Shown one piece after another: positions 11,380-16,030 of a stretch of 64,000 bases of DNA. Location of the stretch: assembly GCF_019688735.1 (NCBI RefSeq), contig NZ_JAIFYA010000001.1, forward strand, positions 620,001 through 684,000, in the 5' to 3' direction. Within the stretch, counting starts at the first letter, position 1. The number at the start of each line of letters is the position of its first letter. The position numbers and the translations under genes are program-made. The notes below the pieces were generated by a model, which saw only the letters and a list, made by a program, of their open reading frames with translations, ran no database searches and had not been told where the DNA came from. The stretch is from Thermosulfurimonas sp. F29. Lineage in GTDB: Bacteria > Desulfobacterota > Thermodesulfobacteria > Thermodesulfobacteriales > Thermodesulfobacteriaceae.

Positions 11380-11458
11380 CGGGCCTTTTTCCTTCTTTGG
11401 TGAAGCGTTTAAGTTCCTCGGCCCAGGCCGTCTCATAGGCTTCCGCCAGTCTCTCCAC
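11363..11458 (-). CDS. Very small hypothetical frame (31 aa), possibly the first half of the following small gene
   Basis: A GTG-started frame giving a short charged, amphipathic peptide (VERLAEAYETAWAEELKRF and a Lys/Glu-rich end). It begins 8 nt after the heptosyltransferase stop and ends inside the next small frame in a different phase. The composition looks protein-like. No family is recognised, and it may be one gene with its neighbour split by a frameshift. Confidence 0.3.
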   Translation of the reverse strand: MERLAEAYETAWAEELKRFTKEGKRPDEETP

Positions 11459-11466
11459 CCATACGC

Positions 11467-12432
11467 TTAACTGTAAACGATCTCCTCCACGGCTTGAAGG
11501 ACCTCCTCCACCGATACGGTGGTGAGGCAGGGGTAGCCCCGGCTGCAGGTCCTCCGCAGACAGGGGCTGCAGGGGAGCCCTTTCCAGACCACCCGGGCCC
11601 GGGGATTGAGGGGGCCGGTGGCCCGGGGATCGGTGGAACCGAAGATGGCCACCTGGGGGCGTCCCAGGGCCGCGGCCACATGCATGAGTCCGGAGTCGTT
11701 GGAGACGAAGACCGTGGCCCTTTCGATGACCGCGGCGGCGGTGGCCACATCGGTCCTTCCGCAGAGGTTGTGCACCCGGGAAAGGCCGGCGGAAATCCCT
11801 TCGGCGGCGTCCCGTTCGTTTACTCCCCCCACCAGGGCCACGGACCAGCCCCGGCGGACGAGCTCTTCGGCCAGTTTCCGGAACCTATCGGGGGGCCAGC
11901 GTTTGGCCGGTCCGTAGGCCGCGCCGGGGGCCAGCACCGCAAGGGGCCCGGGAAGCCCGGAGAGGAGCTCCCCGGCCCGCCGCCGGGCCGCCTCCGGCAC
12001 CGAAAGGGTAAGGCTCCGCTCCGGCACGGAAAAGCCCAGGGCCTCGAGCAAATACACATAGTAGTCCCGCTGATGGAGGGATTCGGCCGGGGGGTTTACG
12101 GCCCGCGTAAGAAGTAACCGGCGACCGTCCGTGGAAAACCCCATGCGTTCCGGTATCCCGGCCAGAAAGACCAGGAGGGCGGAGGACAGGGAATTGGGAA
12201 GGAGAAGCGCCTCCCTGAAGCCCCGACCTCGCAGGGAACGCGCAGTTCGGAGCAGGCCGAGAGACCCTTCGGAAAGAGCGGAAAAACCCCGCACCCCCGG
12301 AAAGCAAGCAAAAAGCGGTTCAAGAAAACCCCTTCCCAGAAGCCAGACCGTGGTCCTGCGGGAGAGGGCCCGCACCACCGGCGTGGCCATCACCGCATCC
12401 CCCAGCCAGTTGGGCAACCGCACCAGTAACAT
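11467..12432 (-). CDS. waaF: Lipopolysaccharide heptosyltransferase, WaaF (II) type
   Basis: About 321 residues of glycosyltransferase family 9. It opens MLLVRLPNWLGDAVMATPVV, the classic heptosyltransferase II start, and the second Rossmann domain has VLAPGAAYGPAKRWPPDRF, FVSNDSGLMHVAAALG and VAIFGSTDPRATGP. A cysteine cluster (CSPCLRRTCSRGYPC) is typical of WaaF. It transfers L-glycero-D-manno-heptose from ADP-heptose onto the LPS inner core at the inner membrane. I prefer the ATG at 12432 over the TTG three codons upstream because it matches the family start. The gene leads the LPS operon towards gmhB. Confidence 0.9.
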   Translation of the reverse strand: MLLVRLPNWLGDAVMATPVVRALSRRTTVWLLGRGFLEPLFACFPGVRGFSALSEGSLGLLRTARSLRGRGFREALLLPNSLSSALLVFLAGIPERMGFSTDGRRLLLTRAVNPPAESLHQRDYYVYLLEALGFSVPERSLTLSVPEAARRRAGELLSGLPGPLAVLAPGAAYGPAKRWPPDRFRKLAEELVRRGWSVALVGGVNERDAAEGISAGLSRVHNLCGRTDVATAAAVIERATVFVSNDSGLMHVAAALGRPQVAIFGSTDPRATGPLNPRARVVWKGLPCSPCLRRTCSRGYPCLTTVSVEEVLQAVEEIVYS

Positions 12433-12475
12433 CTCCCACAAAATACCACAACCCGGAACCCCGGAAAGAGAATCC

Positions 12476-12492
12476 CTACCTTGACAGTAGGA
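12476..12492 (+). promoter_or_regulatory. Operator copy 1 of the isc operon
   Basis: CTACC TTG ACAGTAGGA: an imperfect dyad (CTAC, 7 nt, GTAG) that covers the -35 element of the isc promoter. The same 17-mer with only the three middle bases changed recurs 35 bp downstream. An Rrf2-type regulator encoded in the operon is the likely binder. Confidence 0.7.
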
Positions 12493-12509
12493 ATTAACGG
12501 GATTATTTT
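12481..12509 (+). promoter_or_regulatory. Promoter of the isc operon
   Basis: TTGACA (12481-12486), 17-nt spacer, TATTTT (12504-12509): a near-consensus sigma-70 promoter. Transcription would begin near 12516, inside operator copy 2. The -35 is inside operator copy 1. Confidence 0.75.
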
Positions 12510-12510
12510 A

Positions 12511-12527
12511 CTACCAAAACAGTAGGA
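12511..12527 (+). promoter_or_regulatory. Operator copy 2 of the isc operon
   Basis: CTACC AAA ACAGTAGGA, just downstream of the -10 and over the expected transcription start. It is a second copy of the dyad at 12476. Two sites bracketing the -10 fit repression by a dimeric regulator. Confidence 0.7.
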
Positions 12528-12543
12528 TTTCGGAGGGGCGGTC

Positions 12544-12798
12544 ATGAGGTTCGTGGAGGACATAAAGGCTGATCTGAGCGTGGATCTGGTCTATCGCATG
12601 TGCCCCATGCACCTTCTCGAGCCGGAGGAGTTCCTCCGGAAGCTCCGGGTGGGGCAGATCCTGGAGATTCTCACGGACTACGACGGCGCCCTGGAGGACA
12701 TCCCGGCCTGGTGCGCCCGCAGGGGACAGGAATTTCTGGGCGTGAAAGAAGACGACGGCTTTTTCCGTCTTTACATCAAAAAAATCCGAGAGGTGTGA
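12544..12798 (+). CDS. TusA/SirA-like sulfur-carrier protein
   Basis: An 84-residue protein with the TusA-like fold signature: VYRMCPMHLLEPEEFLRKLRVGQILEILTD corresponds to the CPxP...L..L..G..L.V.. pattern, with the reactive cysteine in CPMHLL where the usual second proline is replaced. TusA proteins accept persulfide sulfur from cysteine desulfurases and pass it to acceptors in the cytoplasm. It is the first gene of the isc operon and is followed after 1 nt by the IscS homologue. A second cysteine (PAWCARRGQ) is in the position often seen in two-cysteine members. A sulfur-relay partner of the isc proteins is the natural inference. Confidence 0.8.
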   Translation: MRFVEDIKADLSVDLVYRMCPMHLLEPEEFLRKLRVGQILEILTDYDGALEDIPAWCARRGQEFLGVKEDDGFFRLYIKKIREV

Positions 12799-12799
12799 C

Positions 12800-13966
12800 A
12801 TGGGAAAGAAGATCATTTACCTGGATCACGCCGCGGCCTCTCCGGTGCTACCGGAGGTATGGGAGGCCATAAGGCCGTATTTTTCCGAAAGGTTCTGGAA
12901 TCCCTCGGCGGTTTACGATCTGGGCACGGAGATCCGGGAAAAGGTCGAGGAAGCCCGTCGCCGGGTGGCCGGACTCATCGGGGCGGAGCCGGAGGAAATT
13001 ATCTTCACCTCCTGCGGTGCGGAGGCCAACAACATGGCCATCAAAGGTCTGGCCCTGGCCCACGAGAAAAAGGGAAAACGCATCCTGGTGTCCGCCATCG
13101 AACATCACTCGGTATTGAACAGCGCCCGTTTCCTCGAACGGCTCGGTTTTGAGATGGCCCTCATCCCGGTGGACTCCCGCGGTCGGGTCACCCCCGAGGC
13201 CCTGCAGAAAATGCTCACCCCGGACACCGTCCTGGTGTCCATCGGTCACGCCAATAACGAAATAGGAACCGTACAGGACCTGAAACCCCTGGTGGAACTG
13301 ACCCATCAGAACGGCACCTTTTTCCACACCGACGCTGTGGCTTCGGTGGGACAGATCCCGGTGGAGGTAAGGGAACTGGGGGTGGACCTCCTGTCCCTTT
13401 CCGGAATCAGCCTTGGAGCCCCCAAGGGAGTGGGAGCCCTTTATGTGCGCAAGGGCGTACGGATCATGCCCCTCATTCACGGAGGTATCCAGGAACGGGG
13501 ATGGAGAGCCGGAACGGAGAATGTCCCGGCCATTATAGGCCTGGGGGTAGCGGCGGAGATCCAGAAAAACCGCCTCCCGCAAAAAATGAAACGCCTTCGA
13601 AAACTCCGGGATCGGCTGGTGGAGGGGATCCTGGAACGGATCCCGAAAACCCATTATACCGGAGACCCTCAAAACAGACTCCCCGGCCACGCCAGCTTCT
13701 GCTTCGAGGGCCTGGAGGGTGAGGCCCTGGTCTTCATGCTTGCGGCCCACGGAATATACGGAAACACCGGTTCCGCCTGTGCCTCCAAGGCCCTCAAGAC
13801 CTCCCCCGTCCTTAAGGCCCTGGGGCTTCCCGAGGTGGTGGCCCAGGGATCTCTGGTCCTCACCCTGGAGGAGGAAAATACCGACGAAGAGGTGGACCGG
13901 GTCCTGGAGGTCCTGCCGCAGGTGGTAGCCCGCCTGCGGGCCATGAGTCCCATCTGGGAGGACTGA
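12800..13966 (+). CDS. Cysteine desulfurase homologue (IscS/NifS family) lacking the PLP lysine
   Basis: A 388-residue class V aminotransferase-fold protein that is clearly IscS/NifS-like from IYLDHAAASPVLPEVWEA through GAEANNMAIKG, EHHSVLN, GHANNEIGTVQDL, HTDAVASVGQ and RGWRAGTENVPAIIG. The active-loop cysteine is present (Cys327, GSACAS). Where family members have S-x-H-K followed by a GPKG-type turn, this protein reads SGISLGAPKG. The PLP-binding lysine is Ser204 and the preceding histidine is Ile203. The final R-x-S-x-G segment is also changed. It therefore probably cannot form the PLP Schiff base. From memory, the Archaeoglobus fulgidus IscS has a comparable loss and is proposed to serve as an IscU partner. 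The intact operon suggests a retained function. Confidence 0.85.
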   Translation: MGKKIIYLDHAAASPVLPEVWEAIRPYFSERFWNPSAVYDLGTEIREKVEEARRRVAGLIGAEPEEIIFTSCGAEANNMAIKGLALAHEKKGKRILVSAIEHHSVLNSARFLERLGFEMALIPVDSRGRVTPEALQKMLTPDTVLVSIGHANNEIGTVQDLKPLVELTHQNGTFFHTDAVASVGQIPVEVRELGVDLLSLSGISLGAPKGVGALYVRKGVRIMPLIHGGIQERGWRAGTENVPAIIGLGVAAEIQKNRLPQKMKRLRKLRDRLVEGILERIPKTHYTGDPQNRLPGHASFCFEGLEGEALVFMLAAHGIYGNTGSACASKALKTSPVLKALGLPEVVAQGSLVLTLEEENTDEEVDRVLEVLPQVVARLRAMSPIWED

Positions 13967-13969
13967 ACG

Positions 13970-14401
13970 ATGCGTCTTTCCACACGCAGTCGGTATGCCA
14001 CGCGCATCCTCCTCGAACTGGCCAAACATTACCCCCGGGGGCCTCTCCAGCTAAAGGAGATCGCCCGCCGCCAGGAACTGTCCCCTAAATATGTGGAACA
14101 GATTCTCCTGCGACTAAAGAAGGCCGGGCTGGTTCAGGGAGAAAGAGGGGCCCGGGGAGGATATCGCCTGGGGCGTCCGCCGGAGGAAATATCCCTCTTC
14201 GACATCCTCTCCGCCACCGGCGAACGATCCCTTACACCCTGCACCGAAGACCCTCCCCGGTGCTACCGGTTTCCCTATTGTGAGGCCAAGGAGGTCTGGC
14301 GGAACCTCAATCAGCTTCTGATCCGCCGGCTGAAAGACCTTTCCCTGTCCGAAATTCTCGAAAAAGGAGGTTCGCATGTTTACGGAAAAATACACCGATA
14401 A
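13970..14401 (+). CDS. iscR: Rrf2-family transcriptional regulator, IscR-like
   Basis: A 143-residue Rrf2 protein. The winged-helix N-terminus (MRLSTRSRYATRILLELA) includes LKEIARRQELSPKYVEQIL as the recognition region and GGYRLGRPPEEISL as the wing. Three cysteines near 88-102 (C-x6-C-x5-C) match the [2Fe-2S] ligand pattern of IscR-like sensors. IscR represses isc genes when loaded with cluster. The gene sits inside the isc operon, 3 nt after the IscS homologue. Two identical dyads lie at the operon promoter, so autoregulation by this protein is likely. Its 3' end overlaps iscU by 26 nt. Confidence 0.9.
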   Translation: MRLSTRSRYATRILLELAKHYPRGPLQLKEIARRQELSPKYVEQILLRLKKAGLVQGERGARGGYRLGRPPEEISLFDILSATGERSLTPCTEDPPRCYRFPYCEAKEVWRNLNQLLIRRLKDLSLSEILEKGGSHVYGKIHR

Positions 14402-14885
14402 GGTCATGGAACACTTCGCCCATCCCCGAAATGTAGGCACCATCGAGGACGCCGACGGGGTGGGAGAGGTGGGGAACCCGGCCTGCGGCGACATGATGAC
14501 CTTTTACATACGGGTTCAGGATGGTCGAATCGCGGAAATTAAGTACAAGACCTTCGGCTGTGTGGCCGCCATTGCGGTGGCCAGTGTGGTGAGTGAACTG
14601 GCCAAGGGAAAGACCCTGGAGGAGGCCAAGGCCCTCAGAAACGAGGACATCGCCCGGGAGCTGGGCGGGCTACCCAAACAGAAATGGCACTGTTCCGTGC
14701 TGGGATTAAAGGCCCTTCGGGAGGCCATAGAGGATTACGAGGCCCGGGTTAGCGGAAAACCCCGACAAAAAACCACCAGACCCAAACGGAAGCAGACCTG
14801 CCCCTCCTGCGGCGTGGAAAATCCCCTTACGGCCCGTTTTTGCATGAATTGCGGGACCGCACTGGAGGGTTCCTGCGGATCCTAA
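14376..14885 (+). CDS. iscU: IscU-type Fe-S scaffold protein with C-terminal zinc ribbon
   Basis: A 169-residue protein. Residues 1-125 are the IscU/NifU-N scaffold with its three cysteines in NPACGDMM, TFGCVAAIA and WHCSVLG, and the conserved Asp after the first cysteine. A Lys/Arg-rich linker leads to a C-terminal rubredoxin-like zinc ribbon (TCPSCGVENPL...FCMNCG) that ordinary IscU lacks. The scaffold assembles [2Fe-2S] clusters for transfer to apoproteins. The LPPVK chaperone-recognition motif is not visible and no hscA/hscB follow. Its start overlaps the regulator gene by 26 nt. Confidence 0.92.
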   Translation: MFTEKYTDKVMEHFAHPRNVGTIEDADGVGEVGNPACGDMMTFYIRVQDGRIAEIKYKTFGCVAAIAVASVVSELAKGKTLEEAKALRNEDIARELGGLPKQKWHCSVLGLKALREAIEDYEARVSGKPRQKTTRPKRKQTCPSCGVENPLTARFCMNCGTALEGSCGS

Positions 14886-16030
14886 AAAGCGGTCCGGAAG
14901 ATCCTCTTCAAAACCAGGGTGGCGTAGGAACCCTTGGGGAGGAAAAAGCGCAGCCGCACCACTCCTTTCTCCACGATTTCGCAGGAGAGATCCCGGGGGA
15001 AGACCACGGCCTCCCGGGGGTAGGTCTTAAAGATGAGCCCCTTGACCAGGCTGCGGAGGCGAGAGAGTCCCTGGATCCCCTCCCTCCGGAGCACGGCCTC
15101 GTAGAGCTCCGAAAGTTCCGGAGAGAGCCTGAGCCGGGGACTGGGGAGCGGAAGGTGTAGTTGCGAAAGCTCCCCGAGGGTCTCCGGCGGGAGTTCCCCG
15201 TAAAAGTAGAGCTCTCCCAGGAGATAGGGGATGCGGAAGTGGACCAGCGCCCGCCTTTCCAGGTAGAGCTTGAGGACCTCGTTCCAGAGGTAGGCCTGAT
15301 AGGCGTGCGCCAGCATCAGAAGATATTCTCCGTCCACCAGGGCGAAGGCCCGCTTGAAGGTGCGCCGGCTCGGTTGACGGGTGGCCAGGAATTCCACCAG
15401 GCGCCGCTCCCAGGGACTGGGGGCCAGTTCCGCGCAGGGAGCCACCCGGGGCCAGTGCCTGCGCAGGCATTCCCGAAAGGTCTGGGTGCGGGTGTACTCG
15501 TACTGGGAACCCTCCACCAGGAGGAGGTAAAGGGCCCTCTCGAAATTTCCCAGCACCGCCTCCCGGGCGGCAAAACCCTTCCGGTGGCGCACGGAACCGA
15601 AGCGCTGCTCGTCAAAGTAGTTGGGCACCCCGAACCGCCGCACCCTTTCCGCCTCCCGCAAAATCTCGTCCTCAGGCAGGTCCACCTCCCGCACGGTGAT
15701 CTCGAAGAGGTTGCCCCTGAGACGGGCCTTGGACATGGGAGAGGAGACCTGCCCCAGGTACTCCAGGTGCCAGTCTTTCCCCCGGAGGTCCCGCCGGGGC
15801 CCCCGGGGAACGGTCACGAATTGATGGGAGACGGCGTGCCGGTCCTTGAGTCCTCCGTAACCGATCAGGTCCTGACGAAGACGAAGCCTCCGGGCGATCT
15901 CCCCCAGGACATCCCAGGTGGTAAGGCCCCTCTTGCGCAGGCGATAGAGGGCGTACTCCCCCCTCCCCTCCGGATGGATGTCCGCCACCTCGTAGACCAC
16001 GAAATCTTCCGGACGGGCCTTTATCTTCAC
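14882..16030 (-). CDS. truD: tRNA pseudouridine(13) synthase TruD
   Basis: A 382-residue TruD family protein. The N-terminus KARPEDFVVYEVADI is the family start, YALYRLRKRGLTTWDVL follows, and the catalytic Asp lies in GYGGLKDRHAVSHQ near residue 80. A later NYFDEQRFGS motif is also diagnostic. TruD isomerises U13 in the D-stem of some tRNAs. The gene is convergent with iscU (4-nt overlap) and divergent from the GGDEF/EAL gene. Confidence 0.95.
   Translation of the reverse strand: MKIKARPEDFVVYEVADIHPEGRGEYALYRLRKRGLTTWDVLGEIARRLRLRQDLIGYGGLKDRHAVSHQFVTVPRGPRRDLRGKDWHLEYLGQVSSPMSKARLRGNLFEITVREVDLPEDEILREAERVRRFGVPNYFDEQRFGSVRHRKGFAAREAVLGNFERALYLLLVEGSQYEYTRTQTFRECLRRHWPRVAPCAELAPSPWERRLVEFLATRQPSRRTFKRAFALVDGEYLLMLAHAYQAYLWNEVLKLYLERRALVHFRIPYLLGELYFYGELPPETLGELSQLHLPLPSPRLRLSPELSELYEAVLRREGIQGLSRLRSLVKGLIFKTYPREAVVFPRDLSCEIVEKGVVRLRFFLPKGSYATLVLKRIFRTAF

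Follow-up and report, generated by a model that had tools for sequence, protein, structure and literature searches.

Conserved paired TAC-N7-GTA dyads over an isc promoter of Thermosulfurimonas as probable operators of an Rrf2-family regulator

The promoter of an isc-type operon (tusA-iscS-rrf2-iscU) carries two similar inverted-repeat sites, named O1 and O2, in the window, which here means the whole 64-kb stretch of DNA that was analysed. Judged from the sequences, the motif is real and very probably an Rrf2 operator pair. We hold with good confidence that O1 and O2 are the operators of an Fe-S-cluster-sensing Rrf2 repressor, which would exert feedback on this operon. The 25-bp form of the site, the position of the -35 hexamer in its spacer, and the persistence of both sites without a neighbouring regulator gene are new here. 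The pair offers a concrete, cross-validated candidate target for Rrf2 control of Fe-S assembly; the literature searched contained no such operator for this lineage. The window genome is referred to as G000; it was compared with the congeners G226, G227, and G229, and with G029 and G181, which belong to another family. The features are listed in Table 1.

Table 1. Promoter elements, candidate operators and genes of the isc operon in the window
Feature	Position	Strand	Evidence or remark
Candidate operator O1, 25-bp dyad AATCCCTACCTTGACAGTAGGAATT	12471..12495	none	core CCTAC-N7-GTAGG at 12475-12491
Candidate operator O2, 25-bp dyad TTTTACTACCAAAACAGTAGGATTT	12506..12530	none	core ACTAC-N7-GTAGG at 12510-12526
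-35 hexamer TTGACA	12481..12486	+	promoter search; invariant in seven promoters
-10 hexamer TATTTT	12504..12509	+	17-nt spacer; alignment of relatives permits 12503-12508
TusA/YedF-like small sulfurtransferase, first gene of operon	12544..12798	+	PF01206, 65.4 bits
Cysteine desulfurase, NifS/IscS type	12800..13966	+	TIGR03402, 484.3 bits (under cut-off of 530.75); PF00266
Rrf2-family regulator Rrf2-A, candidate ligand of O1/O2	13970..14401	+	Cys91/98/104
IscU/NifU-type scaffold with C-terminal zinc ribbon	14376..14885	+	PF01592, PF13240

The preliminary description had reported a 17-bp operator in two copies. An exact-match search found the 17-mer CTACCnnnACAGTAGGA at 12476-12492 (CTACCTTGACAGTAGGA) and at 12511-12527 (CTACCAAAACAGTAGGA). 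The copies are 35 bp apart from start to start and differ only in the three middle bases, as had been claimed. Both copies are real, but each 17-mer is cut off-centre from a larger site, a 25-bp dyad of approximately AATTCCTAC-N7-GTAGGAATT. A single sigma-70-like promoter was detected in positions 11400-15000, where shuffles predict 0.5. The -35 hexamer sits within the N7 spacer of O1, the -10 hexamer falls between the cores of O1 and O2, and the predicted start, at about 12516, would lie inside O2, so that the arrangement first proposed, with the copies bracketing the -10 and covering the -35 and the start, was borne out. The position of the -10 is uncertain by one base because the TATAAT of G227 and G181 aligns one base earlier (16-nt spacer). 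A heptosyltransferase II-like gene (11467-12441, minus strand) diverges from the isc operon, with a possible TTG start codon some 30 nt away from O1. As this gene is close to O1 and the DNA upstream of it looked similar in the congeners by eye, O1 could affect this gene too.

In the 102-nt intergenic region, the closest direct repeat of 17 nt matched at 14 of 17 positions, a value that 5 of 1000 dinucleotide shuffles reached. Across the window, 53 offset pairs matched at 14/17 or better within 17-60 bp, and 46 of them had spacings divisible by three, as expected of repeats in coding DNA; the repeat by itself is therefore weak evidence. When up to 3 mismatches to the 17-mer were allowed, 4 matches were found in the window against 3.23 expected, and 42 of 100 shuffles also reached 4. 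Since such matches are no commoner than in shuffles, it is only the exactness of the two copies that is notable. CTAC-N7-GTAG occurred twice in the window, both times at these sites, with 0.98 expected by a uniform-composition estimate. The composition profile showed nothing of note. The case for the putative sites is decided by their conservation across genomes, not by the repeat.

O1 and O2 were found 35-36 bp apart in all seven promoters compared, namely the isc promoters of the six genomes and a second, efflux-type copy in G029. The motif was thus present upstream of the orthologous isc operons of five other genomes, where its absence would have counted against the preliminary description. 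The left arms of the sites in the seven promoters were TAC or TAT, and the spacing was N7. The alignment contained 27 invariant columns: 17 in O1, 9 in O2 (one of them shared with the -10), and 1 just before the -10. Six of the 17 columns of O1 are the -35 hexamer and 11 lie outside it, so the conservation of O1 is partly due to the -35 itself. Profiles trained without the window sites ranked O1 first and O2 second in the 64-kb window, with scores of 33.7 and 23.8 (next, 10.4). When 395 genomes of the phylum, a set without G226 and G229, were scanned with the O1 20-mer at no more than 1 mismatch, 7 matches in 6 genomes were obtained; the reversed-pattern control gave 2. Double-operator promoters accounted for 5 of the 7 matches; those in G372 and G090 were lone sites without O2.

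In the related operons compared outside these genomes, the CCTAC-type pair was not found. The genes tusA, iscS, and rrf2 (the last located by tblastn) occurred together in 25 of the 120 loci having an Rrf2 relative, which left 21 operons after removal of same-contig repeats. A CCTAY-N7-RTAGG pair was present in three of the 21, those of G000, G029, and G181. The other 18 operons came from Desulfobacterales/Desulfobacteraceae (7), Syntrophobacterales or Syntrophales (2), Desulfobacca (1), Deltaproteobacteria (6), and others (2). None of them had the CCTAC-type pair, and their best single match had at least 3 mismatches in 10, except in G162, where a spot with 2 mismatches looked unrelated. A variant dyad, TATAC-N7-GTATA, was matched with at most 2 mismatches in 15 of 17 tested rows, often over the -10; it was missing in L054 (5 mismatches) and L070 (3). 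By shuffling, 9 of the 17 rows had p under 0.05 (combined, 1.6e-9), in a test that is partly circular because the pattern was drawn from the same promoters and the sequences are related. The 17 rows were taken from 25 orthologous rows. Eight were dropped: the rows of clade A with its duplicates (L009, L010, L011, L039, L040, and L049), L016, which repeats the operon of L045, and L024, whose upstream sequence was truncated. For L024, the fuller stretch L159 came within 2 mismatches of the CCTAC form at best, in an unrelated place, and within 3 of the TATAC form. In four isc promoters of other Deltaproteobacteria (L082, L099, L104, and L106), the TATAC-N7-GTATA-like site is accompanied by another such dyad with 2 mismatches at an offset of 15 bp, which makes a paired operator of another kind.

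In the window operon, the third gene, which lies downstream of O1 and O2, encodes the Rrf2-family protein Rrf2-A. It belongs to the Rrf2 superfamily by PF02082 (122 bits vs 30) and by the NCBIfam model rrf2_super (TIGR00738, 113.9 bits, above the cut-off of 73.3), but it scored below the cut-off of the IscR equivalog TIGR02010 (99.6 vs 207.55 bits). The earlier claim of an IscR-like regulator encoded in the operon holds as far as the Rrf2 family, not as far as IscR proper. Cys91, Cys98, and Cys104 are invariant in the 3-row alignment of A proteins and may bind the cluster. Residue 107 is Lys in Rrf2-A of all three genomes; the His107 that serves as fourth ligand in E. coli IscR is absent. Rrf2-A has Lys40, Glu43, Gln44, and Arg59, while the E. 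coli IscR sequence has Ser40, Glu43, Gln44, Arg59, and His107, so that the two differ at residues 40 and 107. Among solved structures, the nearest were 4cic (a BadM/Rrf2 regulator, Thermincola IscR; E 9.3e-24) and 4hf0 (E. coli IscR; E 1.9e-18). As to the other genes, the TusA-like protein reached 39.9 bits with the best NCBIfam YedF model, under the cut-off of 79. The IscU-type open reading frame overlaps the 3' end of rrf2 by 26 nt, and in G029 the C-terminus of IscU is likewise rich in Cys.

The gene arrangement of the window operon does not recur in G226, G227, and G229. These genomes have tusA-iscS-iscU with no rrf2 between iscS and iscU, and both operators are kept. A regulator encoded in the operon is therefore not a general rule: it is missing in three of the four genus genomes with an isc operon. 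The link between Rrf2-A and the motif is likewise not exclusive, because the sites persist in these three genomes without Rrf2-A. The Rrf2 matches of G000 were A, a divergent C-type protein, and one below the family cut-off, with no B; G226, G227, and G229 had B plus C, their C being 75-77% identical to that of G000. A or B occurred in four of six genus genomes, those having the isc-type tusA. A, B, and the isc-type tusA were not found in G228 and G230, which are fragmentary drafts (89 and 90% completeness). The Rrf2-B gene is divergent to a gene for a PLP enzyme of Cys/Met metabolism, which was found in G226, G227, and G229 and not in G000, G228, or G230. Upstream of B, there is a TATAC-N7-GTATA site with the TAC/GTA core exact in G227 and G198 and weaker in G226 and G229. 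Phylogenetic analysis of 33 rows placed the A proteins of the three genomes in one clade (97/99), within which A of G000 had the longest branch, and A plus B in another (95/98); B alone was weakly supported (90/52). In G198 (L133), the gene directly before tusA-iscS-iscU encodes a third type of Rrf2, which falls well clear of the A and B groups.

This distribution suggests a simple history in which an ancestor had both regulators, A was lost in the sisters, and B was lost in G000; the alternative is transfer of A. A patchy spread of rrf2 genes beside Fe-S loci is reported in PMC9973013, whose authors suggest several independent recruitments. Such a patchy spread fits the distribution of A and B in the genus.

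Because the sites outlast Rrf2-A, they might belong mainly to another Rrf2 protein, B in the congeners and the C-type in G000. We regard this as unlikely, although it is the strongest of the alternatives. Besides the retention of the operators where Rrf2-A is absent, it can draw on the C-type Rrf2, which each of the six genus genomes searched contains (75-90% identity to the G000 protein; in G228, a piece of 77 aligned residues only), and on the TATAC-type profile, which derives partly from the B promoters and also detects the isc O2 of G227 (E 0.72). However, G000 has no B, and its C, encoded near a threonine-synthase-like gene, is without the K40/E43/Q44 recognition segment by inspection of the sequence. 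The 130 nt before the C gene have at least 3 mismatches in 10 to either dyad, and C is also present in G228 and G230, where the isc-type tusA was not found. That the sites are not operators at all, but a strong conserved promoter with a chance inverted repeat, is very improbable. The -35 does lie inside O1, and the direct repeat alone arises in about 1 in 200 shuffles. Yet across seven promoters with near-fixed spacing, among them the copy before the efflux-type operon of G029, the 11 invariant positions that O1 has besides the -35 and the 9 of O2 exceed the needs of a promoter. The idea that O2 works in RNA, as a stem of the 5' leader, can appeal to its position over the predicted start, hence to its partial transcription, but it is scarcely credible, because this start falls inside O2 and most of the left arm would not be transcribed, and because O1, which has the same dyad, lies upstream of the -10 and cannot be in the leader.

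In the mechanism that we propose with an Fe-S-cluster-sensing Rrf2 repressor, a cluster-loaded dimer would sit on each TAC-N7-GTA dyad. Occupancy of O1 would hide the -35 and occupancy of O2 would hide the start, so RNA polymerase would be excluded and the operon would stay low while clusters are plentiful. Exclusion of the polymerase by dimers on O1 and O2 is inferred by analogy with P. aeruginosa IscR and M. xanthus RisR. Loss of the cluster, or damage to it, would release the protein from the DNA and induce the isc operon. In G000 the regulator is most likely Rrf2-A, the product of the third gene, which would close a feedback loop. In the congeners without Rrf2-A, O1 and O2 are probably bound by Rrf2-B, whose gene is not linked to the operon. 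More tentatively, we consider it possible, if somewhat short of probable, that the isc operator pair outlived its regulator, with A serving in G000, G029, and G181 and the unlinked B in the three sister species. A single TAC-N7-GTA code would then serve two interchangeable Rrf2 groups, leaving the -35 in the unread spacer, and the efflux-type pump of G029 would have come under the same control through the promoter copy. This would amount to a natural experiment in which cis sites survive a change of regulator.

The motif had also been expected near other Fe-S genes, and none was found there in G000, neither in the profile scan of the genome nor in the stretch around sufB. With the R1 profile, which includes the window's own sites, O1 and O2 were the sole matches at E <= 10 (150 of 382 candidates scored); a second profile search (R2) scored 150 of 256 candidates. 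Weak sites may escape these scans because at most 150 candidates were scored per genome. G000 has sufB, and in its 3,684-nt stretch the nearest matches to CCTAC-N7-GTAGG had 2 mismatches and lay downstream of the gene. A genome scan with the 17-mer at no more than 2 mismatches gave 5 matches, two of them the known sites; the other three were taken as chance because the reversed control gave 17. In G227, an extra single R1 dyad was found before a Thi4-type gene (L205, C1:1684023-1684046, E 0.28); the other five genomes of the genus do not share it, and it was therefore dropped as a regulon target. As far as the scans reach, the motif marks one promoter in G000. The proposal of an Rrf2-family motif for this lineage thus stood in that the motif is kept at related isc promoters, but it did not extend to other Fe-S genes of G000. 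In G029, a second, similar double-operator promoter lies upstream of isc (L219, C3:108500-119500; copy at C3:116952-116971, minus strand). It is followed by a 109-codon open reading frame without a Pfam match and by genes whose products are an outer-membrane efflux protein, a CusB/HlyD-type adaptor, an AcrB-type pump, and a histidine-biosynthesis-type protein. The isc promoter comes next. The CusB-type domain may point to a role in metal export.

The motif was not described in the literature searched, which consisted mostly of open papers, RegPrecise itself lying outside the search. The accessible parts of PMC9973013, PMC9338935, PMC6599224, PMC12594620, PMC4911364, PMC3828012, PMC9218516, PMC2869319, and PMC9239247 did not describe it, and the T. 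dismutans paper among them (PMC4911364) made no mention of Rrf2, IscR, or isc in its accessible text.

With the -35 exactly between the half-sites of the putative repressor, promoter and repressor would share the DNA with little conflict. The type-1 consensus of E. coli IscR is ATASYYGACTRwwwYAGTCRRSTAT, with GAC as the half-site. O1 and O2 share its 25-bp dyad form, its AT-rich ends, and the N7 that separates the inner triplets; the GAC-N7-GTC triplets themselves are not found in them. In P. aeruginosa, as described in PMC6599224, the iscR promoter has two tandem type-1 IscR sites, both needed for repression, and repression of isc requires cluster-loaded IscR. The likeness is that in both cases an isc operon that includes an Rrf2 gene has a tandem pair of sites at its promoter. 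However, site A of P. aeruginosa is upstream of the -35 and site B is between the -35 and the -10, whereas here the -35 is in the spacer of O1 and O2 is over the start; the half-sites of P. aeruginosa resemble E. coli type 1, whereas the half-site here is TAC (PMC6599224). The footprinted sites of M. xanthus RisR are GAC-N7-GTC, with the consensus Tt/gGAC-N7-GTCCt/a, according to PMC9973013. RisR is a three-Cys Rrf2 protein that represses isc, and its N7 imperfect palindrome overlaps promoter hexamers, as O1 and O2 do. The N7 spacing agrees, and the GAC triplet does not (TAC here). Moreover, RisR protects one region of approximately 30 bp per promoter and also controls suf, whereas there are two sites here, and its ligand Cys residues are 92/102/108, compared with 91/98/104 in Rrf2-A (PMC9973013). 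The operator of the S. pneumoniae Rrf2 repressor SifR, TGTAA-N9-TTACA (PMC9218516), is also near-palindromic but has another half-site and another spacing. The clostridial IscR and CymR motifs of RegPrecise resemble each other, according to PMC3828012; a possible parallel is that Rrf2-B here adjoins a gene of Cys/Met metabolism.
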